A stretch of DNA of 64,000 nucleotides. It comes from Rubripirellula sp. (GTDB lineage Bacteria; Planctomycetota; Planctomycetia; Pirellulales; Pirellulaceae). Shown here in pieces: positions 11,283 through 28,574 of the stretch; position 1 is the first letter of the stretch, and every line of letters begins with the position of its first letter. The DNA is taken from contig JAAXJB010000096.1 of the NCBI GenBank assembly GCA_012270065.1, positions 70,707 to 134,706 of the forward strand, given 5' to 3'. The notes under the pieces are model-generated. The model did not search any database and had not been told where the DNA came from. It saw only the letters and a list, made by a program, of their open reading frames with translations. A program made the position numbers and the translations under genes.

Positions 11283-13145
11283 CTACTTCTTTTTTTTGCC
11301 CTGTCTGTTTTTTGTCTGGAGTGCGTCTTCCAGTTTCACCTTGCCACCTACGATCGGTAGCGCGAGTGAAGTCGCATCAAGGTCAACAGTCAACTGGGTT
11401 CCCGGTTCCGGGTGAAGAGTGAATTCACGATCACTCGAGAAGATCATCAGTCCAATCTGCTGCCCCTCAGGGATCACCTGATCGTCGGGTTGCAGATCGA
11501 ATGTGAGTTCATAGAACTTGCCCGGAACCAGCGGTTCACTTTCACGGATAGAGCGGTAGTTCTGTGGATCAGCCCAGCCGCGCGTGATTATGTTGTCGGT
11601 GATTTTCGCATTTCGATTTTCATTCCAGGGCAATGAAACCAGCCATACGGAGAGGTTGGCCGCAGGTTTGTCGCAAGCAAGACGAATGTTGATTTTCGGT
11701 GTGCCAGAGATATGAACTGGCTGTTTCAGGGTGGGTGTGACAAACATCAGGCGATGATTCGTGCTTTCTGCCTTGGCCAGCGTTGCTCCGCTGAAGGAGT
11801 AATTGTCGGTGAGCGTTTCCTGACCCTGATTGGTCAAGCCACGGGTGGTCAATTCACCGTGCCCTCCGCTGGATTCCGTTTTCCCCAAATGCAGTTTCAC
11901 CGCGGTTGATTCGGGATGCGGATACTCGGGATACGCCGTTGGGTTCGTGCGTTCTTTATCTTCGCGGACAATCCACGACCGGGGATCATTCTCAACGTCA
12001 TTTTCAATTCCGTGCAGGTAACGCGTGAACCAGCGATTCATCATTTTCATGGGCGGCGGGCCGCCGTGTCCACCTTGATGGAAGAAAGCCTGTGCGGGGA
12101 CTCCCTTTTTCTTCAATGCTTCATAAATTCGAACACTGTGTTCAGGAACGACATTCCAGTCATTGAAAGCATGTGCCATCAGGACAGCAGCCTTCAGTGG
12201 TTCGATGTCATTCAGATAATCACGTCCTGCCCAGAAATCGTTGTAGTCTCCGTTGACCCGGTCAAATCCCTCTGCCATTTCTTTATCGCGAACGTTGCAG
12301 TTGCAGAAATCACGTTTTGATTCGTCACCGCTATGGATGAAGTCGTAGAGTGCATCGATATCTTCACCAATGAAGCCACCTGGGTGCCTGATCAGGCCAT
12401 TGGACCGGTAGTAGTGATAGTACGAAGTGTTGGGGGCGATTGGTATGATCGCTTCCAGACCATCGACGCCCGTGGTCGCAGCGGCAAGCGGGATTGTGCC
12501 GTTGTAGGACGTGCCGGTCATTCCCACTTTGCCCGAGGACCAGAAAGCTTTGACAGGTTCACCACCGGTTGGCTCGGTAAAACCCTTGGCCCGTCCACAG
12601 AGCCAGTCAATCACAGCTTTGGGAGCCAGCGACTCATTGTCGCCACCGACGGTTGGGCACCCTTGGGAAAGGCCGGTGCCGGGCGATGAGGAATGAACGA
12701 CGATATAACCGCGAGGCACCCATTCTTTCAGGTGCGAGCGTGAGATGATCGGCCGCTTGCCACGACGGACTACTTCAGGGCCGTGAATCCGTTCAGGTGG
12801 TTCTGTACCAAGTTCCTGTTTGGGGTCCCAGAAATGTTCCGCCGCTGTTGAGCCAGTGCCCGCGAAATAGGGACTCGAAACATAGATCACGGGCAATTTC
12901 AGACCTTCGGTGTCTGTCTGGCGTGGACGGGTCACGCTGACGTGCATTCGATCCAGTTTGCCATCTCCGTCACTGTCAAATTCTGTTTCTACCCATAAGT
13001 CGTGTCTGAGCCAGAAGTCGGGGTCTTTGAATCCATCGACGATTTGAGCTTCACCGTCCTTGAAAACAGGAACTACCGGTTCTGCTGCTCCCGAAACGGA
13101 GAAAAACGAGATGAACAGGAGGGTTGTGGTTGCAAATCGTTGCAT
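11283..13145 (-). CDS. Secreted CocE/NonD family hydrolase (X-Pro dipeptidyl-peptidase S15-like)
   Basis: Encodes 620 residues from the ATG at 13145, immediately followed by a signal peptide (MQRFATTTLLFISFFSVSGA). A longer frame upstream lacks one. The alpha/beta hydrolase core (about 45-440) has the nucleophile in GMTGTSYNGT (Ser213), an acid candidate in FNDWNVVPEHS, and the catalytic His in HQGGHGGPP. The C-terminal half is a PepX_C-type jelly-roll. Members cleave X-Pro peptides or acyl esters and amides; which applies here is not readable. The protein ends in a lysine-rich tail (KNRQGKKKK). Its position beside an aminopeptidase favours a peptidase or esterase role in extracellular degradation. 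Confidence 0.88.
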   Translation of the reverse strand: MQRFATTTLLFISFFSVSGAAEPVVPVFKDGEAQIVDGFKDPDFWLRHDLWVETEFDSDGDGKLDRMHVSVTRPRQTDTEGLKLPVIYVSSPYFAGTGSTAAEHFWDPKQELGTEPPERIHGPEVVRRGKRPIISRSHLKEWVPRGYIVVHSSSPGTGLSQGCPTVGGDNESLAPKAVIDWLCGRAKGFTEPTGGEPVKAFWSSGKVGMTGTSYNGTIPLAAATTGVDGLEAIIPIAPNTSYYHYYRSNGLIRHPGGFIGEDIDALYDFIHSGDESKRDFCNCNVRDKEMAEGFDRVNGDYNDFWAGRDYLNDIEPLKAAVLMAHAFNDWNVVPEHSVRIYEALKKKGVPAQAFFHQGGHGGPPPMKMMNRWFTRYLHGIENDVENDPRSWIVREDKERTNPTAYPEYPHPESTAVKLHLGKTESSGGHGELTTRGLTNQGQETLTDNYSFSGATLAKAESTNHRLMFVTPTLKQPVHISGTPKINIRLACDKPAANLSVWLVSLPWNENRNAKITDNIITRGWADPQNYRSIRESEPLVPGKFYELTFDLQPDDQVIPEGQQIGLMIFSSDREFTLHPEPGTQLTVDLDATSLALPIVGGKVKLEDALQTKNRQGKKKK

Positions 13146-13409
13146 GTGCACGAATCCGGTGAAAATGAATGAGCAAGGAGCGGGAATGTCAGATCGCGAT
13201 GATCGAATCCATGGTTGATGAAAACCGCTGTGATAAACTGACGTGTGTCGATTGATGTGTGTTTGCTGGAAAGCCACGCGGGCCGACTTTCTGATCTGCC
13301 CAGTTTACATGAACGTTCCCGATCCGTCTGCCGGCACTGCGAATCGAGCCTGCAGAATGCACCTCTGTGAGCAGTCGCTTGTTCATTGGCATGCCTGGTT
13401 TGAAGCGTT

Positions 13410-16016
13410 CTACTTCGAGTCCATTTTTTCCCGCAAAGCTTTCAGTTCGGTTTTGAGTTTACTGCTTTCATTCCTGACTTCAGCAATCTCTTTTCGCAGT
13501 TCGATGATCTCTCTTGGTGCGGTCGGCTTGGCCTCACGCAGTTTGGCAACAGCCTGTTGTGCGGGTCGTGATATGCGTTCGTTTTCCGATTTTGAAAGGG
13601 ATTCCAGCACTGTCATCGACTTCGGATCGCCCAGCATGCCGAGTGACTGGATAGCCGCTGCCTGAATGCTGACCTTGGGGTGATCAAGATGTTGCGTCAG
13701 AAAATTCCGCACTTCAACACGGTCTTTCTGACGGCGACTGGTGTGTGCGAGTGTTTCCAGGCCTCGACCATAATCGCGTGTGCGAAATCCACTTGCATTT
13801 TGACGCAGTGCCTTGAATACCGCAGGCTGTAAAGTGTCATCGTCTAACTGCCGGATGGCCGACATGGCGGCCACCGCTAATTCGTTGCGGAAGGATTCTG
13901 ACTTCAGAAACCGGATCAGCGCCTGATGTGTCTGTGGTCCATGATGCTTTCCGAGTCCCCGGATGGCACTTGCAAGAATGGCAGGATTCTTTTCCTTCTC
14001 AAGAATCTGCTGCAGCAATTCGGGGGTTTCCTCCCGATACAGTTGAGTCAACTTGTCGACAATCGCGAGACGAACACGCGCGTCTGGCTGGGTGGACCAG
14101 TTGTCGGCAAGTACCTGGCGTGCTTCGTCCGTTTCGTGCTTTGATAACGCTGAGGCCGCAACGATCCGGACACCATAAAACGGGTCACTTTTCAATGCTT
14201 CACGCAGCAATTCAACAGACTGGTGTGTCTTGCGATTTGCCAGAAGATTGCAGGCCAAAAGGCGACCAATCATGTCTTTTTTGTTTTCCAATTGCTTTTT
14301 CAGCATGTCATTGGGTTTGTCGAATGAAACATTCGCCAGCACGCTGTAATCGGGATCAAATCTCACCACTTCAGGCTGCTTTTCCAACGGCACATGGAAA
14401 TCTTCTTCCATTCGGGTCACGTTGATGGCGTGATCCACCAGCATGCCATCGGCCATGAAACGTAGTTTCGTCGGGAAATGGAATTGCAGAACACTGTCGT
14501 CCAATTTCTGCGTCTGCTTGATGTTCACTTTCGCAAGTTTCTGCTTGGGCATCCATTGGTAGGTGATTTTCAAGTCAGGGTGTCTGGCGTGATACAACCA
14601 CTGGTCAAAGAAACGGTCCATCGGGCGTCCCGAAAGTTCTTCGATGACCTGCCGCAGGTCATCGGATACAACGCTTGATAGTGCATGCTTTTCCAGATAT
14701 GCCTTGATGCACTTGCGGTACAGGTCTTCACCCAGTTGCGACCGGAGCATGTGAAGTACCCAACTGCCCTTTGGATAGGAGCGGTAATCAAATTGCTCCA
14801 TCGGGTTATTGTAAGCGTTGTAGACAATCGGTTTTTTGTCATTCCCCTGAGTGAGAATGCGGCCGGTCGCATCACGATACAGACCATAGAGCATGGCATC
14901 ACGCCCGAACTTCTTTCCTTCGTAGAGGTGGGTGTAGTACGTTGCAAAACCTTCGTTCAGCCACAGGTGACTCCAGTCTTTGCAGGTGACGTAGTCTCCA
15001 AACCACTGGTGAGCCAATTCGTGAGCGTCGAGACCGCGCGTTGTCCGGATGTTTTCGGTGGCAGTTGCGAAGATGGTTCCATCGGTGAGTGTGGTCAGCG
15101 TTGTGTTTTCCATTCCACCGGCAGTGAAGTCCAGAATGGTGACTTGATCATATTTCGGCCAGGGAAAAGGAACGCCGATCTCTTCTTCGAAAAACGCCAT
15201 GATGTCAGGCGTGTCACGGAATGAATTCGCTGCATGCTCTGCGAGCGAGGGTTGTGTGTAAAAACCCAGCGGAATGTCGCCGTGCCGTTTCTTCAGACCC
15301 TTGAGGTGGCCTGCTACCAGACAGATCAAGTAGTTGGCATGCGGTTTCTCGTGATACCAGTGCACTGCCTTCAGACCGCTTGAGTCGATCTTTGCACCTT
15401 TTCTGACACCGTTGCTGAGAACGGTCATTTCCTCGGGGACATGGCAGATGATTTCGGTTGACGACCGTTCGTTTGGATAGTCAAAGCAGGGGAACCAGTG
15501 GCGTGCTTCGTGGGTTTCACCCTGGGTCCAGATGTGAGAGTCAGTTTCCGGGTAACCCATTTCCGGCGTCCGGAAATAAAGACCGGCTCTTGGTTCAGCG
15601 GTGTACTCGATCACTACAGTGAACTCGGTTCCGGGCGGAATCGGCTTTGAGAAAAGGATCTGCAACGATTCTCTGGTCGAAACGAAATCACTGACTTCGG
15701 ATTCTTTGCAGATTACTTTTTTGACTGAGATGTCTTTTGCATCGAGTTCAAGAAGTTCAACAGGTTTCGCGATTGGTTTTGCCGTGATGCTTACTGAGCC
15801 GCTGACTGTCCTCTTTTTGAAATCGGGTGTGACATCCAGTTTGATGTGCAGCACATCCACTTTGCGATCAGGCGCGTAGTGAAATCTGCCTTCAAGTTCG
15901 AGGCCGAGTGGCAACAGATGGCTGCTCCCCTCAGCGCAATAACGACATATCCGTTCTTCAGCCATCGCTGGACTGATCAGGCCAAACAGTGTGAAAGCAA
16001 GTATGAGGTCGCGCAT
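13410..16016 (-). CDS. Secreted M1-family metallo-aminopeptidase with HEAT repeats and coiled-coil tail
   Basis: Encodes 868 residues. The ATG at 16016 is preferred because a signal peptide (MRDLILAFTLFGLISPAMA) follows. The gluzincin signatures are complete: substrate-binding GGMEN (300-304; the family usually has GAMEN), zinc ligands HELAHQW at 332-338, and the third ligand Glu in LWLNEGFATY at about 355. After the catalytic region come HEAT-like helical repeats (about 600-820). The C-terminal 40 residues form a charged coiled coil (ELRKEIAEVRNESSKLKTEL). A CRYC pair just after the signal peptide is an additional feature. It should trim N-terminal residues from peptides outside the cytoplasm. 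Confidence 0.92.
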   Translation of the reverse strand: MRDLILAFTLFGLISPAMAEERICRYCAEGSSHLLPLGLELEGRFHYAPDRKVDVLHIKLDVTPDFKKRTVSGSVSITAKPIAKPVELLELDAKDISVKKVICKESEVSDFVSTRESLQILFSKPIPPGTEFTVVIEYTAEPRAGLYFRTPEMGYPETDSHIWTQGETHEARHWFPCFDYPNERSSTEIICHVPEEMTVLSNGVRKGAKIDSSGLKAVHWYHEKPHANYLICLVAGHLKGLKKRHGDIPLGFYTQPSLAEHAANSFRDTPDIMAFFEEEIGVPFPWPKYDQVTILDFTAGGMENTTLTTLTDGTIFATATENIRTTRGLDAHELAHQWFGDYVTCKDWSHLWLNEGFATYYTHLYEGKKFGRDAMLYGLYRDATGRILTQGNDKKPIVYNAYNNPMEQFDYRSYPKGSWVLHMLRSQLGEDLYRKCIKAYLEKHALSSVVSDDLRQVIEELSGRPMDRFFDQWLYHARHPDLKITYQWMPKQKLAKVNIKQTQKLDDSVLQFHFPTKLRFMADGMLVDHAINVTRMEEDFHVPLEKQPEVVRFDPDYSVLANVSFDKPNDMLKKQLENKKDMIGRLLACNLLANRKTHQSVELLREALKSDPFYGVRIVAASALSKHETDEARQVLADNWSTQPDARVRLAIVDKLTQLYREETPELLQQILEKEKNPAILASAIRGLGKHHGPQTHQALIRFLKSESFRNELAVAAMSAIRQLDDDTLQPAVFKALRQNASGFRTRDYGRGLETLAHTSRRQKDRVEVRNFLTQHLDHPKVSIQAAAIQSLGMLGDPKSMTVLESLSKSENERISRPAQQAVAKLREAKPTAPREIIELRKEIAEVRNESSKLKTELKALREKMDSK

Positions 16017-16328
16017 CAGGAGGTTCACCAGGGAAATTTTTCGTCGGTTACGGCGTTGAAGCCGGATCAAAATCTGTTTGCAGACAGAATTATAATACGA
16101 GGGTACGGCCAACGGGTTCGAATCCTTGCAGCTTTGCAAAACCGGTCGGTGGGTTCGTCGCCGGCATCACCGCGGTGCGTGCAGGGGGCGGTTTGCCACC
16201 ATGTTCCCGCGGCTACCGTGCGTCGCCGTCTTTGGGCATCACCGGAAAGATTTTGCTCGGCGGCAGGATTTCGTCAACGCACGGTAACGGCCGGTCAAAC
16301 GATGACCACGCCGAACCGCTGGTTGGTA
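16017..16328. other. GC-rich structured intergenic region
   Basis: The region lies between two minus-strand genes, downstream of a sulfatase and upstream of the aminopeptidase. It contains a perfect 10-bp palindrome (caccgcggtg, 16168-16177) and a perfect 10-bp inverted repeat, taccgtgcgt (16214-16223) with acgcacggta (16277-16286), enclosing 53 bases. A second short motif, ggcatcacc, occurs at about 16163 and 16237. A tataat-like box sits near 16091-16096 and is nearly symmetric, so it could serve the aminopeptidase on the minus strand. No protein gene is convincing. It could be a folded RNA leader, a terminator region or a degenerate mobile remnant. Confidence 0.45.
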
Positions 16329-18125
16329 TCAGTCTTGATCGCGGTCGTCCGGGATGATTGCTTGAGCACCCCTGTCGCCAACCTGGAAAAAACCGAGCTG
16401 TTGACCATCGGTATCTGCAATCATCCAGACGGCACCAGGACGGGTGCTTTGCCGTTTCGGGGTATTGGTCGACAAGAGGCCGTAGCTGGTCTTTTTTCCT
16501 GACGGGCTGATCCAGAAAAGCTCAACGTCGGCACCACGCTGATTGATAAAGAAACACTCAAATGGCTGACCATCCGGTCTGGAGGGTGGTGCGGGTTGCG
16601 CCCCGCCTGCATGCCACTTGAGTCGTGGCATTGCTTTGATACTGATGGGGACATACTTCTGAAAACTTGCCGGAGCTCTTGACCGGAAGTACTGCAGAGT
16701 GGCGTCGTGGTTTGGGTCTTTCGCAAGGTTATTCCATTCATGGGGATCCGAACTGATTTGATAGAGTTCTTCACCGCCGTCTTTGTAGTGAATGTATCGC
16801 CAGTCCTGATCACTGATGCTGTACTCTTCCGGGCGATTCAGGAAGGTCGTTGATACGTGTTGCCACTCTGATTGTGGGTCGTTCAACAGGGAAACGAGAC
16901 TTGGGGCAGAAGCCTGTTGCGGGGTGGGGATGCCAGCCAGTTCCGTCAGTGTCGGAAACAGGCTCAGCAGATTCACGGGCTGATCGCATTGAATCGCCGG
17001 CTCGGTTCCGGCGGGCATGCCAGGTGCGCCCTTGGGAACTCGTACGATCAAGGGAACCCTTGTGCAGACTCTCCATCCCGTAAATTTTTGCCAATGCTGC
17101 TTTTCACCGAGATGCCAGCCATGATCACTCCAAAGCACCACGATCGTATCGTTTGCGTTGGGCCCGGATTCCAGAGAATCGATTACCCGACCAACCATCG
17201 CATCTGCAAATGCGATGGACGCAAGGTATCCCTGGATTGCTTTTTTCCATTGTCCCTGTGCCTGGATATGTTCAAAGTACCGGTTAGGGCCACGCCTGCG
17301 ACCGGCGGTTGGCAGGTCGTCGAGATCATCGGAACGATAACCCGGCGGGATTTGAATCTGTTCCAGAGGGAATTTCTTATAGTACGCGCGTGGGACGAAC
17401 CAAGGTTCATGGGGACGATAGATTCCGCAAGCGAGGAAGAAAGGCTGCGCGTGCTGTTTCTGCAGCTGTTTCGATACCCATTCTGACACCAGCCAGTCTC
17501 CACCGTACTCCTCATCCGTTGCATCCAAGGCGGCCCAGTCGGTTTCCACGTACTGCCAAGGGCCACCACGAGGCAGGTTGACGGGACGCTGCGGGGGTTG
17601 GAGGGTCGGTGGAAACGGATTCTCGCTTTCCTTGTTCGGGTAGTACTCATCCCACGAATCCGCATCAATGAAGTAGTGCAGCATTTTTCCGGACCCCGAG
17701 GAATGATAACCATTCCGTGAAAAGTGCTTGGGAATCAATTCGGCGTTCGGGAGGACTTCCCGCATTTTTTGTCGATTGTCGTACAGACCGGACTTGTTTG
17801 GAGCGATACCCGTCATGATCGCAGTCCGGGATGGGTTGCAAGCCGGTGCAGGGCAGTGTGCGTTGGTGAACAGCACACCGCTCGCTGCAAGACGATCAAT
17901 GTTGGGAGTCAGTGTTTGGGGGTGTCCCTTCAGGCAACCGATCCAGTCGTTGAGGTCATCGACCGCAATGAAAAGTATGTTTGGTTTCGAAACACCAGCA
18001 GAAGTCTTGTCAGGGGTTTGGTCGCGATCATCGACGGCAACCGCAGAGGATGTGAGTATGAGCGTGATGAGAATTGACAAGCTGCTAATGAGATGCAGTT
18101 GATTCACGGGCCTTACTGGGTGCAT
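16329..18125 (-). CDS. Secreted sulfatase (iduronate-2-sulfatase type) with C-terminal VHL-beta-like domain
   Basis: Encodes 598 residues from the ATG at 18125, followed by a signal sequence (about 10-31). The sulfatase core starts at KPNILFIAVDDLNDW, the variant seen in iduronate-2-sulfatase relatives. ACNPSRTAIMTG gives the formylglycine Cys at 96, and VLWSDHGWHLGEK is the second metal block. Residues about 520-585 form a separate beta domain. Its spacing resembles the von Hippel-Lindau beta domain: FFINQ, VELFWISPSGK, Y-G-L-L, then a W-M-I strand. VHL-beta domains in bacteria are thought to bind ligands or hydroxylated proline; that role here is inference. The domain may anchor the enzyme on a glycoprotein. 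Confidence 0.9.
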   Translation of the reverse strand: MHPVRPVNQLHLISSLSILITLILTSSAVAVDDRDQTPDKTSAGVSKPNILFIAVDDLNDWIGCLKGHPQTLTPNIDRLAASGVLFTNAHCPAPACNPSRTAIMTGIAPNKSGLYDNRQKMREVLPNAELIPKHFSRNGYHSSGSGKMLHYFIDADSWDEYYPNKESENPFPPTLQPPQRPVNLPRGGPWQYVETDWAALDATDEEYGGDWLVSEWVSKQLQKQHAQPFFLACGIYRPHEPWFVPRAYYKKFPLEQIQIPPGYRSDDLDDLPTAGRRRGPNRYFEHIQAQGQWKKAIQGYLASIAFADAMVGRVIDSLESGPNANDTIVVLWSDHGWHLGEKQHWQKFTGWRVCTRVPLIVRVPKGAPGMPAGTEPAIQCDQPVNLLSLFPTLTELAGIPTPQQASAPSLVSLLNDPQSEWQHVSTTFLNRPEEYSISDQDWRYIHYKDGGEELYQISSDPHEWNNLAKDPNHDATLQYFRSRAPASFQKYVPISIKAMPRLKWHAGGAQPAPPSRPDGQPFECFFINQRGADVELFWISPSGKKTSYGLLSTNTPKRQSTRPGAVWMIADTDGQQLGFFQVGDRGAQAIIPDDRDQD

Positions 18126-18165
18126 GGGGTTTCTTCGTGTGATTGCATGAATGCCAAGCGTGAAT

Positions 18166-18204
18166 CTCATGAATCCGGGCTGGATGAACGTATGAATTCA
18201 TGAG
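18166..18204. repeat. 9-bp inverted repeat between two sulfatase genes
   Basis: ctcatgaat (18166-18174) and attcatgag (18196-18204) are perfect inverted copies separated by 21 bases, in the 105-base gap between two minus-strand sulfatases. The symmetry suits an operator or RNA hairpin. There is no T-run, so a terminator is less likely. Confidence 0.5.
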
Positions 18205-18230: not shown

Positions 18231-21200
18231 CTAGTTCTTGTAGGGCTTTTCACGGTCGTTGCCCTGTTTTTTGATGTCATCGCGTATCTTCTGTTTTGTC
18301 TTGCTCAGGCGTGCTGGCCACTGGAAAGTTGGCGCCTTGTCAGGCTCATAACCCTTCAAGTGTCCAGTCAACCTCTGCTGTGGTTTTGTGTACACAAGTT
18401 CGGTTGTGCCAAAAACTTCTTTGCAGATGCTGGCAAGTCCAGGGTCGTACTCCATCAGTTCTTTCCGTGTGTCGACATGGTTGTGGTCATGATCAGGTGG
18501 CCGGTTGTTGTTGAACCAGGATTGAACCCCTTCTGCAAAATATTCGGCGTGGTTTGTCGAGGCGTACTTGGATTGCCACAGATTGTTCTTCATGGCTTCG
18601 TCGTAACACTTGCGAAGACGGTCATCAAATGTGGGATCGAGGTTGACCAGGCCACGCAGGTGAATGTTGTGGGCAAACTCGTGAATCAGGATGTTCTCGG
18701 TTGAATAGGGATCACCTGGAAAAGCGAGTACGTTTTCTTCTGCACATGAGCAGACCGCGTCTTGCCGTGACCCGCCCAGGCCTCGTGCTCGTGCATCCCA
18801 GAAATCCTTGGGCTTCAGGTGTCTGTATTCGGGAATGTCGGAGGTGAACTCCTTGTGCCCCATCACAATCATCCGCGATCCGCTGTCGATCATCGCCTGT
18901 CGAATGTCGGGGCGTTTCTTCAGCATCATGTCAACAAGAAAAGCTGCTTCCTTGAGGGCGTAATCATTCACTGCACCTGAGGAAACAATGGGATAGCCCG
19001 ATGCTTGAATGTACTTTTTGTAAAACGGGTCCAGTTTTAATGACTCCGGTATCGCTGTTACCTCGTAATCGGTGACGGTATGATCGTCCGGAGCAGACAG
19101 AGTGACTGCATCGCGGGGATGATTTGCAGCCTTGACAACGGGCAACCTGGGTGGGGGATTCCATAAGCGTTCGAGAACTTTTTCCATTCGGGGGTCATGT
19201 TGATGAAGTTCAGCACGTACGAACGGATAGAAATCATTTGTGCCAAAAAATGCCTCGGTTGTTTCGGCAAAGTATTCCCGTGAATTGTTCATGCCGTAAG
19301 CACGCTCAAGCCTTCCATTGCCACGCAGGATGGAGTCGTAATTGCCGCTGGCTTTTGCCTGTTCATAGGCCTGATTGATTTCAGGATGTCCAAAACCGAG
19401 AAACTGGTGATGGTATGCGTGCGCCAGTTCATGCAGCATCAGCATTGGCATGCGTTTGTACTCTCTGGCGAAAATGTCGATGTTGGTAAGTTCTACACAC
19501 TCAACCAATTCTGGATTGCGACCCTGTTTGATCAGCCAGTCCGAGCCGGGGTGGTATTCCGCAGTGGGGCGTACGCCCTTGTAAGCTGGCGAAAGCCAGA
19601 TGGGAACATCCCGCACGACAGCGAGCGATGTTTCAGGCAGAATGTAGGTCAGATGCCGCAACTGCTGCTTGATCAGCTTGATGGCGGTAGCGGTTTTTTC
19701 CGGTTGTGTTTTCTGCAATTCGTGACTGATACGTACAGGCCATCCGATGAGGTTCTGATTGCGGTAGCCCTTGATGCGTGCGCGAGGATCGTTGGTGCGA
19801 ATGAGTTCGGCTTTCAGTTGTCGACGCAGCCGATTCTTGATGGAGGCGTATTTCCTTGAGTCAGCAAGATTGTTGAGTTGCTGAGGATCGTGCCGAAGGT
19901 CATAAAGTTCCTCGGCCGGTTTTGCGTTGAAGGCAAGATCGGTCCAGCGACGGACCTTGTCGCCGTTGAGGCGAAGGTACTGTTTTGTGGGGGATGGGTC
20001 GATGTTGTATGAGAATGCGCCGGGGTCAGTTGGCCAAGGTTTTACGGCGAAGTCGTATTCCGGGTTCCTGCCTTCCACGACTCCTGTTTTCCACTCTGCC
20101 GGAACCAAATTGGAGATGTAGAGGAATTCGGAATTTCGCAGTGACCGTGACGGAGTCGGGTAAACATGCTTTTCCAGCCCACTGACGACGAATGTGCGAT
20201 TCGCATCGATCTGACCATTCCGTTCCGACCTGATTTGTGGCATCAGGCTTTGCCCAGTCATCTGGGGTGCGGCTCTGAGGCCTCCTGCTTCCAGAAAGGT
20301 AGGCGCGAGGTCACACAGTGACACGAAGTCATTGACGACATGGGGTTTGGCCGTCTTTGCTCCCCAACGTATTGCCAATGGCACTCGCGTACCCGTGTCG
20401 TAAAGCGTCGCCTTGCAACGCGGAAAAGGCATTCCATTGTCACTGGTCACCACGATGATGGTCTCTTCAAGCTCGTCAATGGCTTCGAGTCGGGTGATGA
20501 TTTCTCCCAGTTCCGAGTCAAATCGCTGCACTTCTGCCAGGTAGTCGGCGAGGTCATTGCGTACAACGGAGTTGTCAGGCAGGCATTGCGGAACTTCGAT
20601 CTGGTCGGGATCGATTCCTGATTTCAGTCCCATGCCCATTTCGTAGGGACGATGGGGATCCTGGCCACCATACCAGAAGCAGAATGCCTGTCCCGGACGA
20701 CGGGCATTCAGGAATTGATCAAACGACTTGTATTGATCACCAAATGAATCCCGGTTTCGAAATTCATGTTTGCTTGGCCAGACCCCTTTGCCATATCGAC
20801 CTATCAGGTATCCGGATTCCTGAAGCATCTCTGTGTACACGGGAAAAGATTCTCTCAGTGAACCGCCAAGACTGTCACCCTCGCGTAATCTCCAGTGGTA
20901 TTGTCCTGTCAAAATGCTGAGTCGGCTTGGCGTGCAGGATGGCGCCGAAACAAAAGCGTTTTTGAACAATGTGCCTTCGTTCGCGATGCGATCAAAATGA
21001 GGTGTTGCGACCGCCTTGGCACCCAGAACACTTGCATGAGGCCATGACCAGTCATCAGCAATGACGACCACGATGTTTGGGCGAGAATCTGTCGCAGGTC
21101 CACCTGTTTCTGTTGTGACTGATTCTTTGGCCGGGGCCAGATCAGGAGATAAGCATGGGCCGATGACGCATGTCATCAGGCACAGCCTCGTCAGAACCCA

Positions 21201-21296
21201 CGGAATCGGGCTGAAGGTTTGAGCCTTGGTGCCTGCAATGCGTTTGCGTTGCAGTTGTGTAAATTGCATCATGGAAGATTCGTTCATAAGGGGCAT
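18231..21296 (-). CDS. Sulfatase fused to two zincin metalloprotease-like domains
   Basis: Encodes 1021 residues, about twice a normal sulfatase. The N-terminal 70 residues contain a hydrophobic export segment (WVLTRLCLMTCVIG). Domain 1 (about 72-545) is a sulfatase: RPNIVVVIADDWSW, SCTPSRLSILTG with the formylglycine Cys at 121, and VVTSDNGMPFPR. Domain 2 carries HELAHAYHH (622) and a second block REYFAETTEAFF (E about 674). Domain 3 repeats the pattern with HEFAHNIH (872) and AEYFAEGVQSWF (about 918). The HExxH plus E-Y/F-F-A-E arrangement resembles the zinc sites of anthrax lethal-factor-type (M34/ATLF-like) peptidases. All predicted zinc ligands are intact in both copies. The reading frame is continuous. 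Coupled desulfation and proteolysis of sulfated glycoproteins is my inference. The exact start (21296 or a nearby internal ATG) is uncertain. Confidence 0.88.
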   Translation of the reverse strand: MPLMNESSMMQFTQLQRKRIAGTKAQTFSPIPWVLTRLCLMTCVIGPCLSPDLAPAKESVTTETGGPATDSRPNIVVVIADDWSWPHASVLGAKAVATPHFDRIANEGTLFKNAFVSAPSCTPSRLSILTGQYHWRLREGDSLGGSLRESFPVYTEMLQESGYLIGRYGKGVWPSKHEFRNRDSFGDQYKSFDQFLNARRPGQAFCFWYGGQDPHRPYEMGMGLKSGIDPDQIEVPQCLPDNSVVRNDLADYLAEVQRFDSELGEIITRLEAIDELEETIIVVTSDNGMPFPRCKATLYDTGTRVPLAIRWGAKTAKPHVVNDFVSLCDLAPTFLEAGGLRAAPQMTGQSLMPQIRSERNGQIDANRTFVVSGLEKHVYPTPSRSLRNSEFLYISNLVPAEWKTGVVEGRNPEYDFAVKPWPTDPGAFSYNIDPSPTKQYLRLNGDKVRRWTDLAFNAKPAEELYDLRHDPQQLNNLADSRKYASIKNRLRRQLKAELIRTNDPRARIKGYRNQNLIGWPVRISHELQKTQPEKTATAIKLIKQQLRHLTYILPETSLAVVRDVPIWLSPAYKGVRPTAEYHPGSDWLIKQGRNPELVECVELTNIDIFAREYKRMPMLMLHELAHAYHHQFLGFGHPEINQAYEQAKASGNYDSILRGNGRLERAYGMNNSREYFAETTEAFFGTNDFYPFVRAELHQHDPRMEKVLERLWNPPPRLPVVKAANHPRDAVTLSAPDDHTVTDYEVTAIPESLKLDPFYKKYIQASGYPIVSSGAVNDYALKEAAFLVDMMLKKRPDIRQAMIDSGSRMIVMGHKEFTSDIPEYRHLKPKDFWDARARGLGGSRQDAVCSCAEENVLAFPGDPYSTENILIHEFAHNIHLRGLVNLDPTFDDRLRKCYDEAMKNNLWQSKYASTNHAEYFAEGVQSWFNNNRPPDHDHNHVDTRKELMEYDPGLASICKEVFGTTELVYTKPQQRLTGHLKGYEPDKAPTFQWPARLSKTKQKIRDDIKKQGNDREKPYKN

Positions 21297-21338
21297 CACG
21301 GTGGGTGACGTTCGGGGAACGGCTGTGTTGCGAGCTTC

Positions 21339-23258
21339 TCACTTTTTTTGTGAATTCTCGGCACGCTTCTTTTGATTTTTCGATCTTTTCTGCTTGGGCG
21401 GGTACGGAACCCCGTTGATATAATTCAAGCGGTCATCAACGTCTGCACCGTTGCTGACGGGCTGGAAGTCAGATCGCTTGACAGGATACCTGTCATTGAA
21501 AAAGTCCTTGAACCAGACCACCGAATTCAGAGCCTCGGTTGCCTCCACGGAGTTCTTTGTGGTGTTCACAACCTCGGTCAGTGTCGTCTGGGGATTGATG
21601 GCTCCGATTCTTCCGAGGAATTCTGCGGCCCTGACGCGGACAATCAGGGATGGATCATTCAGAAGCCGTTTCGCATCTTCTGTCATTTCGGAAGCGTCTT
21701 CGCCGAAGGCTGTGCAAACCATCGAGCCCCAGTAACGCCTCATCGGATCTTCTGAATTCAAAGCTGCCAGGATTCCCGGTCGGGCTTTTTTGAAAGGCAA
21801 CAGGGCAAGATCTGCGATATCCACCAGAGCGGCGATTTCAGATTTGTGGTTCTGTCCGAAAGCGACGGGATTGCTCATCGCATGTTCTGCCAGATAACTT
21901 TCCGGATAGAAGCTCAGGTCTGGCATCTCCTTCACGATTTCCTGAAGCCTTTGCCGCAGGTCAGCCAGAACCGCGGCATGTTCCGGTTTTCCGGCGAGAT
22001 TGTTGACCTGATGTGGATCTGCATCGCAGTCAAAAAGCATTTCGTTTGGTTTGGGATCGAAAAACTGCTTTGCAGCACCCGATAGTTTTCCGGCATGGTA
22101 CATCTCACGCCATTGGGCGAACGCAAGATTCTTGTAACGGTAGTTGTTGTTCAGCCCGTCGGGCAGGTAAGGCTGGTAGTTGCGCACGTACTGGTACTTG
22201 CCCTTTCGAATTGAACGAATGAAATCGTATTTTTCATCGAAACGATCTGCGTATCCGAATGCTTCATCGCGGGCATTGATTGTCGCTGTTGAAACAGCTT
22301 TACCGAGGAATGGCTTGCCATCGACTTGAGGTGGGACCTTGATGCCGGCAAGATGGAGCACGGTTGGTCCAAAATCTATGAAGCTGACAAAGCCGTTCAG
22401 GCGTGTGCCGTCGGCACTGGGAACGAGGTGCCGGAAATTCTCTGGAACACGGACGACCAGGGGAACGTGCAAACCTGACTCGTAGATATACCCTTTGCTT
22501 CGTGGGAGCACGCCGCCATGGTCACCGAAGTAGAAAACGAATGTGTCTTCCAGGACTCCATCCTGCCGTAATTGTTCGATGGTTCTTCCCACGATCGCGT
22601 CGATATCGAGCATGCGATCAAGGTAGCGAGCATGTGTGTAACGAAACAATGGTGTATCGGGGTGATAGTCAGCCAATTGGATGCTGTCAGGATCCGTTTT
22701 GGTTCTTTCGCTCTCGAATACCCCGCGATTGAAGTGCAAGCTTCCTTCATGGGACTGTGCGTGCGATTGCATGTGGAAGAATGGTTGATCCTTCCTGGGC
22801 CGGTTTCGCCATGAAGCAGTGCGTGATGAGGCATCCCAAACACCCTGTCCTTCGACCGCGTTGTAATCCTTCTTGCTGTTGTTGGTGGTGAAGTATCCAG
22901 CATCCCGGAGATAGGCAGGAAACATCTTCAGGCCTTTTGGCATTGGAGCCAGGGCATAACGGCGATGAAACTGTGTTCCGATTCTCGGACCATAGCATGC
23001 GGTGGCGAGCGTGGTGCGGGCTACGGAACAGACAGGTGCATTCGAAAATGCGTTGTTGAAGGTCAGCCCGTGTGCTGCCAGAGATTCGATGTGAGGGGTC
23101 TTTGCACCACCGTCGAAGAAATGGTTGAGGTAGTGGATCGAGTTGTCTTCAGAAACAATCCAGACGACATTGGGGCGATCCGCTGCCGCAGTCGTGGCAG
23201 CAGGAGCAAGTGTAAACGCGGTCAGGGCAAGGAGTGCGACCAGAGCTCTTTGAGGCAT
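21339..23258 (-). CDS. Sulfatase-like hydrolase with non-canonical CSVAR motif
   Basis: Encodes 639 residues from the ATG at 23258, which is followed by a signal peptide (MPQRALVALLALTAFTLAPA). The sulfatase fold is clear: DRPNVVWIVSEDNS, YFGDHGGVLPRSKG, and a C-terminal DCDADPHQVNNLA block. The active-site motif reads CSVAR (77-81) and not C-x-P/A-S-R: Pro/Ala becomes Val and Ser becomes Ala, while Cys and Arg remain. I checked the codons tgt-tcc-gta-gcc-cgc on the minus strand, so it is not a frame error. A HEAT-like segment (about 505-590) follows, and a very basic tail (KQKRSKNQKKRAENSQKK) ends the protein. It lies 43 bases upstream of the fusion sulfatase in the same direction, so co-transcription is likely. 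Confidence 0.88.
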   Translation of the reverse strand: MPQRALVALLALTAFTLAPAATTAAADRPNVVWIVSEDNSIHYLNHFFDGGAKTPHIESLAAHGLTFNNAFSNAPVCSVARTTLATACYGPRIGTQFHRRYALAPMPKGLKMFPAYLRDAGYFTTNNSKKDYNAVEGQGVWDASSRTASWRNRPRKDQPFFHMQSHAQSHEGSLHFNRGVFESERTKTDPDSIQLADYHPDTPLFRYTHARYLDRMLDIDAIVGRTIEQLRQDGVLEDTFVFYFGDHGGVLPRSKGYIYESGLHVPLVVRVPENFRHLVPSADGTRLNGFVSFIDFGPTVLHLAGIKVPPQVDGKPFLGKAVSTATINARDEAFGYADRFDEKYDFIRSIRKGKYQYVRNYQPYLPDGLNNNYRYKNLAFAQWREMYHAGKLSGAAKQFFDPKPNEMLFDCDADPHQVNNLAGKPEHAAVLADLRQRLQEIVKEMPDLSFYPESYLAEHAMSNPVAFGQNHKSEIAALVDIADLALLPFKKARPGILAALNSEDPMRRYWGSMVCTAFGEDASEMTEDAKRLLNDPSLIVRVRAAEFLGRIGAINPQTTLTEVVNTTKNSVEATEALNSVVWFKDFFNDRYPVKRSDFQPVSNGADVDDRLNYINGVPYPPKQKRSKNQKKRAENSQKK

Positions 23259-23603
23259 TGTGAATTCTTTTTCGGGCGGCATATGGCAATTGGAAGAAAC
23301 GGGAGACAGATCCATTACATCCTCGATCTGTGATCATACATGGTGGCATCATTCATGTTGGCGTAAGTTGGCCCGACCGCTTCGCAAGTCAGCTTCTCAC
23401 GGCAAATGGGTTCATGAATGAGATGGTAGTCACTGCAAGAAAAACGCGGTCGAGAAAGGGCTCAACCGCGATTCAGAGGTTTCCGTTGTGAGCGAGTCGT
23501 TGTTCGGCTTTCCAGCCGGCGCTGTCTTTCCGCAAAGGTGCATGAACACGTGATTACCGCGGTATGACAGCTTCTGGCTGTGACAGCGAGTCGCTCGATG
23601 TCA
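23259..23603. other. Intergenic region upstream of the CSVAR sulfatase
   Basis: About 345 bases between two minus-strand genes. Apart from the terminator hairpin near 23437-23470, I see no coding gene, repeat array or RNA. The promoter for the CSVAR sulfatase and the fusion sulfatase should lie between 23260 and 23436. Confidence 0.4.
23437..23470 (-). terminator. Rho-independent terminator of the propeller-like gene
   Basis: On the minus strand the sequence reads cgcggttgag, a six-base loop, then ctcgaccgcg, a stem of about 10 bp with one mismatch. A tttttctt run follows directly. It lies 134 bases past the stop of the gene ending at 23604, so it likely ends that transcript and separates it from the sulfatase genes. 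Confidence 0.7.
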
Positions 23604-24707
23604 TCAGGGCAGGTCGATGGATTTCAGGCTCATTGATCCGGTTTCCGGCTGGATCACGACCAGTGCATGTGCATCGTCGAGTTTGTCCAGTTGGACTACA
23701 CCAGTCAATTCATCAATCGTTTCATAGCTTTGTCCAGCCACGCCACCGTTGGAAACACGCTCGGTCAGTGGCTTGGCATTTTCCATGTTGTCCGTGCTGA
23801 TTTTCATGACACCCCTGGCACTGTTGGCCATGAGCACAAAAGCTTTTCCATGCTGGTTGTACACGATCATGTCCAGCGGCCGGTTTCGATTGCCCAGCTC
23901 TGCGATTGTGGTGCCCTGAACCATGTCTTCACTTGCCAGTTTCTTGATTGGAATTTTGACCAATGGCGTGCAGGTGTATCCAGCGAGCAGGCTGGGCTCG
24001 CCTCCAATGTTGAAAGGAACAAATGTCTGGATCGGTGCATAATCTTCCGATCGACCGTGTGCTGCATGAAAAATCTCGACGCGAAAACCATTGGCGGCTT
24101 TCGTGAATGGAAAGTCAAATTCACGGACAGAGCTGGGGGCGTCACCAGTGGCTAGTCCCGCAACCAGAATCCGACCTGCGGTGTAGGCCAGGTCGGTGAT
24201 TGAGTTCGAACGTGGATTGCTCTTGCGACGACCACGTTGAACCACCTTGTCCTCGGGGGCATTGGGAAGGCTCACCGACGCGTTGGCAATTTTATCGAGA
24301 TTCAGGGGGGCGACAGTGCCATCGGGAGTGACTCGAACGATTCCTGATTTCGCACCCGATGTGATGGACAGGAATGCGTTGCCCGTTTCAGGATTGACCG
24401 CCAGGTCGACTACATTGATTCCATCGCTATCCAGGGCAGAGGAAATCTTGCCGTTCAGGTTTGATACATCAAAGGAGTTGCCCTTGCCTTTTTCATCTTC
24501 GGTATTGACCGCGTAGACTTTGGCGGCTTTCGGGTCGCCAATGAACAGGATGCCGGACGGTCCGAATGCGAGCGGTCCACCTGATTGCAGTTCTACTGGT
24601 CCACGTTTGAGACCGTAAAGCTCCGCGGCATGAACTCCAGCAGATTGACTGCTCAAAAGGCAGACGGACAGAAGGGTCAGTGTGAAGAACTTCAACGGTC
24701 GACGCAT
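23604..24707 (-). CDS. Secreted beta-propeller-like protein of unknown function
   Basis: Encodes 367 residues. The ATG at 24707 is preceded by an aaggaa ribosome site at good spacing and followed by a signal peptide (about 1-28, ending SAGVHAAE). Repeated short strands with G-P-L-A-F-G-P-S-G, VVDLAVNPETG, ITDLAYTAGR and PLDMIVYNQHGKAF resemble blades of NHL/SMP-30-like propellers. No catalytic motif or haem site is visible. A basic linker (RGRRKSNPRSN) interrupts the middle. It probably acts outside the cytoplasm as a binding or scaffold protein; function unknown. It has its own downstream terminator. Confidence 0.75.
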   Translation of the reverse strand: MRRPLKFFTLTLLSVCLLSSQSAGVHAAELYGLKRGPVELQSGGPLAFGPSGILFIGDPKAAKVYAVNTEDEKGKGNSFDVSNLNGKISSALDSDGINVVDLAVNPETGNAFLSITSGAKSGIVRVTPDGTVAPLNLDKIANASVSLPNAPEDKVVQRGRRKSNPRSNSITDLAYTAGRILVAGLATGDAPSSVREFDFPFTKAANGFRVEIFHAAHGRSEDYAPIQTFVPFNIGGEPSLLAGYTCTPLVKIPIKKLASEDMVQGTTIAELGNRNRPLDMIVYNQHGKAFVLMANSARGVMKISTDNMENAKPLTERVSNGGVAGQSYETIDELTGVVQLDKLDDAHALVVIQPETGSMSLKSIDLP

Positions 24708-24734
24708 GGGATTGTTCCTTGCAGTGGAAGATTG

Positions 24735-24769
24735 CAGTGGCAGCACAGTGGGCAGAACAGTGGGCAGCA
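24735..24769. repeat. 12-bp tandem repeat upstream of the propeller-like gene
   Basis: Three adjacent units: cagtggcagca, cagtgggcagaa and cagtgggcagca. They lie 28 bases or more upstream of the start codon at 24707 (minus strand), so they are probably in the 5' leader or promoter. Confidence 0.7.
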
Positions 24770-24933
24770 CTGCGTGGGAGGATCGACAGTCTCACGGATG
24801 CTTCTCGATGGCACCATGCTGTCTGATCGTTGACCCCCATAGTGTATGGTTTTTTTTCCGTGCCGCAATTTAGCCACTGCCGCTTATGGGCGGGTCGTGC
24901 ACAATGCTCGCCAAAAGAGGCAGATGAGAGGAC

Positions 24934-26334
24934 TCACATCGGGGCGATGCGAGCTGAGCCCATGTCGGTTGTCAGCACAACATGGGCATCAAACGCCTGC
25001 CGGATCAGTGTGTTTTTGATGTTCTGGTGCTCTGGTGAGTCCCACAGGTCATCGAATTCCCAGGGGTCCGCCGAAAGGTCATAAAGCTCGCCAAGTTGCT
25101 TGTCGTGATACATGCAAAGTTTGTGTTGTCGGGTGCGGAACATGGTCCCGAACGTGCCGCTGCCACCAGTGAAATGAGGGTCCAGGGCATCAAAGTACTC
25201 GGATCTCACAAATGCCCGATGCTCATCAACCGAAGCCTCCCCCCGCAGGATCGGCATCAGGCTTTTGCCTTGCATCTGGTCATGCCCCTGAACCCCGGTT
25301 GCTTCGAGCAGTGTCGATGACATGTCGAGCAATTCGACCAGTGCTTCACTCTTGAGGCCCTGTTGAAATTGGCCTGGCCACGAAAAAATCAGCGGCACTC
25401 GAACCAGTCCTTCATAGAATCTGCAGCCTTTGTACATCAATCCGTGATCGCCCAAGGCTTCACCATGATCACTGGTGAAAAGGATGATCGTGTTGTCGCG
25501 CTGCCCTGTCACTTCAAGAGCATTGAGAATCCGTGCCAGTTGATCATCGATTTGTGCGATCATCGCGTAATAAAGTGCCTGGACCCGATGCGCGTCATGT
25601 TCATCTGGGGTTCTGATTTCATCCTGAAAATCAAGTTCAGCAAGTTTTGTCTGCTGTTCCATGTCACTGGGGCGGAAGTGTGGGCCAGGCATGTCGTCGG
25701 GGTTAAACCGATCCGCATACGATTTGGGAGGGATGAATGGCGGGTGAGGGTCGTAGACATTCAGATTGAGCAGCCATGGCGAATCTTCATGCTGCCTTTT
25801 GCCGATGAAGTCGATCGCACATTCACTTGCCCAGGTTGTTTGATGCATTTCCGGGCAGACGCGTTCTGCGCTCTGCCTCATTGCATCAAGATCACCTCCC
25901 TGTTGGCGTACCCAGTCTGCGTAGTGATGTCCTTCAGCCCAGTCATCACGTGGCGCATGGCTGAATTGCCAGTAGTCGAAACCATCATCAATCCTCGGTT
26001 CGGTCCGGTGACCCGAACTCTGAAGGTGAAACTTGCCGATCATTCCGCAGTGATATCCGGCTTCTGCAATCAACTTGGTGATCACCGGATGCGTTGATGG
26101 AAAAGATTCGTTGCCGTTCCGCGTGTTATGTACACGTGAAGGATACATCCCGGTCATGAAACTGGACCGACTGGGGGTACAGATCGGACTCTGGCAATAG
26201 GCGTGTGTGAACGCAACCCCCTGCTCGACCAAGCCGTCAATCGTCGGTGTTCTTACGTGCGGGTTTCCCAACGCACCGATGGTGTCAAACCTTTGTTGGT
26301 CGGTGCAGTACCAGAGAATGTTGGGGCGTTTCAT
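24934..26334 (-). CDS. Sulfatase without signal peptide
   Basis: Encodes 466 residues. The core begins at residue 3 (MKRPNILWYCTDQQRFDTIG), leaving no room for a signal peptide, unlike the other sulfatases here. The active site ICTPSRSSFMTGMYPSR puts the formylglycine Cys at 52. IGKFHLQ and LFTSDHGEALGDHGLMYKG are typical of choline-sulfatase/iduronate-sulfatase relatives. It may act in the cytoplasm on imported sulfated sugars or choline sulfate. No in-frame ATG with a hydrophobic extension is seen upstream. Confidence 0.9.
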   Translation of the reverse strand: MKRPNILWYCTDQQRFDTIGALGNPHVRTPTIDGLVEQGVAFTHAYCQSPICTPSRSSFMTGMYPSRVHNTRNGNESFPSTHPVITKLIAEAGYHCGMIGKFHLQSSGHRTEPRIDDGFDYWQFSHAPRDDWAEGHHYADWVRQQGGDLDAMRQSAERVCPEMHQTTWASECAIDFIGKRQHEDSPWLLNLNVYDPHPPFIPPKSYADRFNPDDMPGPHFRPSDMEQQTKLAELDFQDEIRTPDEHDAHRVQALYYAMIAQIDDQLARILNALEVTGQRDNTIILFTSDHGEALGDHGLMYKGCRFYEGLVRVPLIFSWPGQFQQGLKSEALVELLDMSSTLLEATGVQGHDQMQGKSLMPILRGEASVDEHRAFVRSEYFDALDPHFTGGSGTFGTMFRTRQHKLCMYHDKQLGELYDLSADPWEFDDLWDSPEHQNIKNTLIRQAFDAHVVLTTDMGSARIAPM

Positions 26335-28001: not shown

Positions 28002-28574
28002 TAAAACTCTTGCGACAGGTCAAAAACAGGTGAGAAATAGAAGGATGCGGGAGAGCTTGATGGTGCATCTCAGCTGAGAGCGATCAACCTCGGGCACGGC
28101 AATGGACGGTTGGCAACAGCTTCGATTTGACACGATTCAACCGGAAATAACCGCCTTGTGCAAGTATAACCACCTTGTTCTATCTGCGGTGGGGGGGGAC
28201 AGATAACTCTGCGATAAGCGAGGACATAATCAATTTGAGGGACGCAAAGTCGGCTCGATCGTCCCATTTCTACTGGAAACGTTCAGGAGAAAGCCTTTTT
28301 GAGCCGCTTCGTGGTGATCGCCTGCGGTTGGGATCGGCACGCAATCACCGCGATTGTGTACAAAACCATACTGATTCACGCTTCGCTGCCATTCGGGAGG
28401 CATTCCATGGGTGCAGGAATGGTGTCAAACTGCGATTCGGCGGTAACATGATGCCGGGGAAGTGCGCCAGGCAAGTGAGGTCGGGACGGGCGTTCGGGAT
28501 CTGGGTGAGTGTTTGCCGCGGCATGCAGAAAGGGCGTGAGGCGACGCCAGCTTGGTAAAAAAGAATCTTACGGA
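28002..28574. other. Divergent intergenic region with a 12-bp palindrome
   Basis: About 570 bases between the phosphatase (minus) and the aldehyde dehydrogenase (plus). It contains a perfect palindrome, tctcagctgaga, at 28068-28079, and a run of eight G at 28191-28198. Open frames across it have no family resemblance. No RNA gene is recognised. The space is enough for two promoters and an operator. Confidence 0.45.

Follow-up and report, generated by a model that had tools for sequence, protein, structure and literature searches.

A planctomycete sulfatase that ends in a von Hippel-Lindau beta domain with an altered hydroxyproline pocket

A sulfatase gene with a VHL beta domain at its end

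We analyzed a 64,000-nucleotide stretch of DNA from Rubripirellula sp. (assembly GCA_012270065.1, contig JAAXJB010000096.1, positions 70,707 to 134,706 of the forward strand; hereafter the window), in which a sulfatase gene encodes a protein that ends, over its last ~85 residues, in a true von Hippel-Lindau (VHL) beta domain. The open reading frame (ORF) spans 16329..18170 and encodes 613 amino acids (aa); it lies on the minus strand, as do all features below unless stated otherwise. A first-pass annotation of this locus had given the extent as 16329-18125 and no strand. Since frame 1 of 16329-18125 contains stops on the plus strand, we rejected that reading and place the gene on the minus strand (18170..16329), where 18125 is the in-frame Met16 and the residues formerly numbered 520-585 become 535-600. 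Met16, being followed by a hydrophobic stretch, is probably where translation starts: residues 16-45 (18036..18125) read by eye as a probable Sec signal peptide with a hydrophobic helix at 24-40, which is also present in the AlphaFold2 model, with low confidence at that place. The sulfatase is probably secreted.

Three Pfam families matched the 613-aa protein (Sulfatase PF00884, E 1.9e-42; SGSH_C, E 2.6e-10; VHL, E 0.0075). The catalytic domain covers residues 63-414 (16929..17984) and holds the C-N-P-S-R sulfatase signature at residues 111-115 (17826..17840), with Cys111 as the formylglycine site; C111, N112, P113 and R115 are invariant in alignment A3, whose 71 sequences (the window protein and 70 of the 80 loci described below) were chosen for holding CNP. 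By sequence the enzyme is a type I (S1) sulfatase, having both the C/S-x-P-x-R motif (C111-N-P-S-R115) and PF00884, and its activity is predicted. The nearest solved structure is 6hhm, an S1_7 ulvan sulfatase (phmmer E 2e-51; Foldseek E 1.9e-30), which makes SulfAtlas S1_7 a possible subfamily for the protein.

The VHL beta domain occupies residues 528-610 (16341..16589). The first-pass annotation had recognized a VHL-beta-like C-terminal domain from the spacing of strand motifs; all of the quoted motifs are present (FIN, VELFW, GKKTSY and WMI), and the proposal is borne out by profile, predicted fold and family matches. With PF01847 the domain is matched at residues 537-589, at 16.7 bits in the whole protein (E 0.0075), 20.1 bits with the domain alone (E 6.4e-4) and 20.0 bits in the genome scan, none of which reaches the gathering cut-off of 21 bits, while its relatives L074, L120 and L132 score above it. 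By these scores we class the window domain as a VHL-beta homologue that falls just short of formal membership in PF01847. In a single-sequence search of the PDB with the last 103 residues, the best phmmer E was 0.15, and these weak scores are what might favor an unrelated beta-sandwich that resembles VHL by chance. We regard that explanation as extremely improbable: 19 of 21 rows of the same single-sequence search were already the human VHL protein (pVHL), and the profile, fold and family results contradict it. A profile of 77 domains (alignment A2, the window and 76 of the 80 loci, with L077, L103, L119 and L133 left out) found pVHL in 24 of 27 PDB rows at E<=10 (E 6.9e-4 to 1.9e-3), and in a comparison with PF01847, 75 of the 77 reach E<=1, with 1.9e-10 as the best value. 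AlphaFold2 on the 77-domain alignment gave a domain model with a predicted local distance difference test (pLDDT) of 90.9 and a predicted template modeling score (pTM) of 0.82; in the full-length model (pLDDT 85.9) the domain blocks scored 89-97 and the last three residues 60. All 50 Foldseek matches listed for the domain model are pVHL entries (best E 2.4e-6), and VIA-align placed model residues 24-109 on pVHL 63-158 of 8zv8_C (Z 11.0, root-mean-square deviation 2.6 over 86 residues; 75 of 998 chains at Z >= 8). The predicted structure is thus a VHL beta-sandwich, and with profile search, Foldseek and VIA-align all giving pVHL we rejected the unrelated fold. The alpha domain, which binds elongin C, is absent: the beta-domain alignment reaches model residue 106-109 of 109, and there the protein ends.

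Bacterial VHL proteins and the residues of the pocket

We confirmed 104 relatives on genome contigs and kept the best 80 loci. The search that found them used two peptide patterns; TRPG[AS]VW[ML][IV], one of the two, spans VHL 111-117. These best 80 come mostly from Planctomycetota, Verrucomicrobiota and Kiritimatiellota, with a few unplaced bins and one genome titled Nealsonbacteria; Rhodopirellula europaea 6C has a member (L120). The C-x-[PA]-x-R motif was printed for 73 of 80 loci, that of L073 not being the catalytic one; of the seven others, six run off the contig 5' end (L067, L081, L088, L102, L103 and L130) and L077 is a short 114-aa frame. The VHL domain ends within 16 residues of the frame end in 72/80 loci. 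Among the other eight, the extension reads by eye as a second sulfatase in six (L083, L094, L117, L120, L132 and L138), the frame of L080 continues from sulfatase and VHL into an M90-like metallopeptidase, and that of L095 continues 152 residues past VHL to the contig end.

The domain extends well beyond sulfatases. It was matched in 22 of 40 close genomes (own included) at E<=0.01, in sulfatase or other type, and PF01847 at E<=1e-3 was found in at least 56/392 Planctomycetota genomes and at least 19/288 genomes in the phylum to which the L074 genome belongs (Verrucomicrobiota, from its title) vs. 0/14 control genomes; at the loose limit of E<=10, 4/14 controls gave matches, none above the cut-off. 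Both counts are lower bounds because PF01847 at E<=1e-3 misses some sulfatase-type domains, including the window's own (E 0.004 in the genome scan) and that of G432, the genome of L072, which shows none. Assigning each VHL protein by blastp to one reference, we found among the 76 PF01847 matches in Planctomycetota 41 S9/dipeptidyl-peptidase IV (DPP-IV)-type peptidases, 11 M90-like metallopeptidases, 8 sulfatases, 4 acetylesterases (SASA), 4 leucine-rich-repeat (LRR) proteins, 4 F5/8-type proteins, 1 GH127 protein and 3 without assignment. The label 'M90-like' comes mostly from blastp similarity, and among the proteins scanned only L054 and the window protein at 18231-21299 pass Pfam cut-offs. 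The window's own genome holds one S9+VHL protein (L001, contig C11; PF01847 34.6 bits); weak matches on C17, C58 and C79, which gave E 0.03-1.5 and in some cases contained in-frame stops, were dropped as chance. The GH127 protein, L066 (G320:C243), joins a VHL domain to an enzyme of the beta-L-arabinofuranosidase family; GH127 acts on the hydroxyproline-linked arabinose of extensins, according to the available part of PMC4454575.

In a tree of the domains (125 rows, 71 columns, bootstrap not yet settled), 53 rows that include 51 of the 52 sulfatase rows (not L194) form one set with support 100/93, which lies inside a wider set (97/89) that adds the S9 row L148 and the rows of SASA, LRR and GH127 proteins. 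Human VHL falls among the S9 rows on a long branch, without firm support.

VHL is known chiefly as an animal hydroxyproline reader in oxygen sensing. The hydroxyproline site of pVHL consists of Trp88, Tyr98, His110, Ser111, His115 and Trp117, with Ser111 and His115 binding the hydroxyl, as given in the accessible part of PMC9528729. In the window copy the aromatic cage is present, with Trp88 as Trp553 (16512..16514), Tyr98 as Tyr563 (16482..16484) and Trp117 as Trp582, and VHL 111-117 corresponds to TRPGAVW at residues 576-582 (16425..16445; Thr576 = S111, Arg577 = Y112, Ala580 = H115, Trp582 = W117). Thr at position 111 is also found in 40/41 S9-linked bacterial domains. Ten sulfatase-type relatives found with the whole domain (L008-L017) carry TRPGAVW in nine cases and TRPGSVW in L016.

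The VHL fold could be a structural or inter-domain module of sulfatases, in which the conserved motifs TRPGAVW and VGDR pack on the catalytic domain or a partner and nothing is bound. A motif specific to the family swaps, in all but a few members, two residues of the pocket; the domain almost always stands at the C-terminus (72/80); and the full-length model is highly confident within the domain, as a matter of local confidence only; all of this would suit such a module. The cage itself is kept, however: in the 81 sulfatase-type domains (80 loci and the window) W88 is found in 80, Y98 in 73 (5 Phe), W117 in 81 and a hydroxyl at 111 in 81 (75 Thr, 6 Ser). Since the search motif covers positions 111-117, there is some circularity in the counts at these positions, though not at W88 and Y98, which lie outside the patterns, and we therefore tallied all 76 PF01847 matches instead, a set that is free of motif bias but leans towards pVHL-like sequences. 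It restores what the bias weakens: W88 and W117 are each kept in 75/76, and in the eight sulfatases found by PF01847 alone W88 is kept in 8/8, Y98 in 7/8, W117 in 7/8 and a small hydroxyl at 111 in 8/8. The same domain also sits on unrelated enzymes. Altogether, we consider a purely structural role unlikely, though worth keeping in view.

Position 115 tends to differ between the enzyme classes. It is His in 39/41 S9 proteins (1 Ala, 1 Asp), 11/11 M90-like, 4/4 F5/8-type and 3/3 without assignment. In a wider, overlapping collection, in which identical domains were counted once and 6 domains were without architecture, S9 proteins have His in 57/65, Asp in 7 (all from the window's genus or genome) and Ala in 1, vs. 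Ala in 81/85, Ser in 3 and His in 1 for sulfatases. The Asp carriers in the window's genus are the S9+VHL proteins L001 (G000:C11), L024, L028, L031, L033, L034 and L036, with the motif STFxGDxW. Two sulfatase-type domains with His115, L194 (G671:C2; STFAGHTW) and L230 (G372:C11; STFIGHVF), each lie near one of TRPGAVW type (L197 and L225, respectively).

Gene neighborhoods in the window and in relatives

The VHL-bearing gene is the fifth in a run of seven that are read the same way, starting at 26334 and ending at 11283, are spaced 39-288 bp apart and may be co-transcribed. The run opens with a sulfatase (24934..26334), a 388-aa ORF (23604-24770) with no Pfam match at E<=1 and no tblastn match in the 80 loci, and a sulfatase with a HEAT-like C-terminus (21339..23315). 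The upstream neighbor, 60 bp away (18231..21299), joins a sulfatase to an M90/ATLF-like metallopeptidase domain at its C-terminus, in itself an unusual fusion, and its metallopeptidase part is 47% identical over residues 22-278 of an L079 VHL-bearing protein that adjoins a VHL-sulfatase. Downstream follow an M1 aminopeptidase with HEAT repeats (13410..16139) and an Xaa-Pro dipeptidyl-peptidase of family S15 (11283..13277; NF003780 783.8 bits, above the cut-off of 642). M1 and S15 genes also stand beside the VHL-sulfatase in L067-L071 (S15 partial in L069, at a contig end), and the sulfatase+M90-like gene is kept in L068-L071. We looked for a hydroxyproline operon at the window and found none; what L067-L071 keep is the cluster of sulfatases, M1 and S15. 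On the other strand, 28509-31615 holds a single aldehyde dehydrogenase and a single flavin amine oxidoreductase, which we did not count because no racemase/epimerase or DHDPS gene is beside them. Elsewhere in the same genome, contig C79 holds a cluster of epimerase, DAO- and DHDPS-family genes. Near the run, at 1801-3990, is a SASA-type acetylesterase, a type that carries a C-terminal VHL domain in the planctomycetes L147, L154 and L156.

Candidate hydroxyproline-catabolism genes adjoin VHL genes in several relatives. In L074, a metagenome-assembled genome of Verrucomicrobiaceae, two sulfatase+VHL genes, the second of the window's family, are followed by a proline-racemase-family gene and a DPP-IV/S9+VHL gene, and the last three genes of this row have overlapping ends. 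L085 has the same two sulfatases, the racemase-family gene of L074 (92% identity) and a DHDPS-family gene. L079 holds an M90-like gene with VHL, a sulfatase+VHL gene of the window's family and a second sulfatase, and also genes of the DHDPS, racemase and DUF885 families and the first part of a DAO-family gene. The top NCBIfam model for the seven racemase-family proteins scanned is 4-hydroxyproline epimerase, with none above the strict cut-off.

After seeing L074, we tested proximity genome-wide by searching VHL-positive genomes for PF05544 within 5 kb of PF01847, leaving out G430, the L074 genome in which the idea arose. Three of the 33 genomes with both genes qualified (G654 at 0.46 kb, G680 at 3.0 kb and G411 at 3.6 kb) vs. 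0.086 expected under uniform placement (P 9e-5); for Verrucomicrobiota the count was 2/5 (P 7e-5). The G654 region reads as an operon of Xaa-Pro aminopeptidase, epimerase, DPP-IV+VHL, POT peptide transporter and a D-amino-acid-dehydrogenase-like enzyme, and so does that of G680 (D-amino-acid-dehydrogenase-like enzyme, epimerase, aldehyde dehydrogenase and DPP-IV+VHL, with one or two frames between). The link in G411 is looser because an IS110-type transposase sits between the epimerase and the M90-like+VHL gene. At L198 (7059-14697) and L199 (3732-11779) there are apparent hydroxyproline-use operons with a DPP-IV/S9 peptidase that has an N-terminal VHL domain; that of L198 also includes an Xaa-Pro aminopeptidase and a POT peptide transporter.

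Proposed docking on hydroxyproline-rich glycoproteins and comparison with known systems

The first-pass annotation had advanced the idea that the domain docks the enzyme on hydroxyproline-rich proteins. It is partly supported: VHL genes beside hydroxyproline-breakdown genes in some relatives suggest as much, and the pocket is kept in peptidase-linked domains. In our most likely reading, the sulfatase would be anchored by its VHL domain on a sulfated glycoprotein rich in proline/hydroxyproline, which neighboring peptidases degrade. SSG185 of Volvox is sulfated. Substrates of this kind exist, algal glycoproteins of the wall or matrix being one example: in Chlamydomonas and Volvox the matrix is built of hydroxyproline-rich glycoproteins (available part of PMC10762512), and SSG185 carries a hydroxyproline-rich domain (available part of PMC9818292). 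The VHL domain would then act as the substrate-docking module while the catalytic domain takes sulfate off glycans. The kept Trp88/Tyr98/Thr111/Trp117 cage would hold the polypeptide or the hydroxyproline attachment point, and Ala115 and Arg112 may adapt it to substituted (O-glycosylated, possibly sulfated) hydroxyproline and not to a free 4-hydroxyl; a larger pocket for glycosylated hydroxyproline is conjecture. Neighboring peptidases (M90-like, M1 and S15 here; DPP-IV/S9 in relatives) would degrade the protein next, and free hydroxyproline would go into the epimerase/D-amino-acid-dehydrogenase route. Taken as a whole, this scheme of a secreted S1-family sulfatase with a VHL docking module is a tentative one, which we hold to be nearly, if not quite, as probable as not.

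A number of results weigh against it. The window copy lacks His115, with Ala580 in its place. Among the sulfatase fusions found by PF01847 alone, Ala is at 115 in 7/8 (1 His) and Arg at 112 in 7/8 and in no other class, and in the 81 sulfatase-type domains 112 is Arg in 80 and 115 is Ala in 79 and Ser in 2; the S9+VHL copy of the same genome, L001, has Asp at 115. Within the window, none of the 36 ORFs scanned with Pfam matched the proline-racemase or DHDPS family, and tblastn at 1e-10 gave no match there for the proteins of hydroxyproline catabolism from L079, L198 and L199. An epimerase stands at only 3/80 sulfatase loci, in two lineages and 754 kb of DNA, for which chance would give 0.04-0.15 if there is one epimerase per 5-20 Mb. 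Proximity in Planctomycetota alone came to 1/23 genomes (P 0.057), and to 0/5 in five further genomes with named loci and both genes (G431, G434-G437). VHL and epimerase co-occur across the 392 genomes (23/56 vs. 54/336, P 8e-5), and this weakens on splitting them into the window's class (14/15 vs. 18/25, P 0.22) and the rest (9/41 vs. 36/311, P 0.08); because significance disappears within strata, we give the PF01847-PF05544 association little weight and rejected it as proof.

Sulfatase fusions, with Ala for His115, lack the textbook contact to the hydroxyl of hydroxyproline, and a simple 'intact hydroxyproline reader' is unsupported for the window copy. Given Arg in place of Tyr112 and Ala in place of His115, it is unproven that this copy binds hydroxyproline; the domain may read substituted hydroxyproline, read something else or only support the fold. 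One form of 'something else' is a carbohydrate- or sulfate-binding module, in which Arg577 and the opened pocket bind a sulfated sugar and no hydroxyproline. The predominance of Y112 -> R and H115 -> A in sulfatase fusions would fit it, as would Ala or Asn at 115 in the acetylesterase (Ala 4/4), leucine-rich-repeat (Ala 3/4, 1 Asn) and GH127 (Asn 1/1) VHL domains and the fact that the closest solved enzyme is an ulvan sulfatase. Yet it does not account for the candidate hydroxyproline-catabolism genes that adjoin sulfatase+VHL at L074, L085 and L079; moreover, the S9 copy L148 also has A115, and the sulfatase copies L194 and L230 have H115. We judge this account improbable, and more so than the structural one, and continue to prefer docking on a hydroxyproline-rich glycoprotein.

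A broader idea, possible if rather doubtful, is that PVC-group bacteria dismantle hydroxyproline-rich glycoproteins with a whole set of secreted enzymes, comprising S9 and M90-like peptidases, sulfatases, a GH127 enzyme and acetylesterases, whose VHL domains are hydroxyproline readers, with the opened sulfatase pocket (H115A, Y112R) reading the O-glycosylated or sulfated form. If true, animal oxygen sensing would not have invented the reading of hydroxyproline by the VHL fold, and a bacterial module of this kind could be the source of the animal domain. A VHL fold on bacterial degradative enzymes makes hydroxyproline reading outside oxygen sensing concretely and cheaply testable, and would offer marine microbiology candidate genes and a route for the breakdown of sulfated hydroxyproline-rich glycoproteins.

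Among the literature matches listed, the sole paper on a bacterial VHL protein is PMC9002001, and none dealt with sulfatase or hydroxyproline contexts; nor did we find a paper joining von Hippel-Lindau with hydroxyproline epimerase, or VHL with sulfatase and planctomycetes, in searches that mostly covered literature outside subscription. In it, a VHL beta domain had already been reported from a bacterium, in EMK97_00595 of Litorilituus sediminis, a hypothetical protein that the available part of the paper reads as tumor-suppressor-like and places in no sulfatase or hydroxyproline context.

The catalytic domain of the window protein resembles 6hhm (the S1_7 ulvan sulfatase FA22070 of Formosa agariphila) and the iduronate-2-sulfatase structures 5fql and 6ioz in fold and sequence, with 25% identity to 6hhm in the Foldseek alignment; the phmmer match of 6hhm stops at query residue 468, and the VHL domain lies outside it. 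Within the same bacteria, S9/DPP-IV-type peptidases (among them L001, L037 and L160) carry a homologous VHL domain; there, however, VHL is mostly N-terminal, the catalytic part is a peptidase and the pocket is mostly kept (H115 in 39/41), whereas the window protein has a C-terminal VHL domain on a sulfatase and Ala at 115. Human pVHL (PDB 8zv8, 6gmn, 1lm8 and others) has a beta domain of the same fold at about 21% identity, and shares Trp88, Tyr98 and Trp117 with the window domain, which has Thr where pVHL has Ser111 and in which His115 is replaced by Ala and Tyr112 by Arg; and while pVHL is an E3 ligase with an alpha domain, the bacterial sulfatase is without one and ends at its beta domain.

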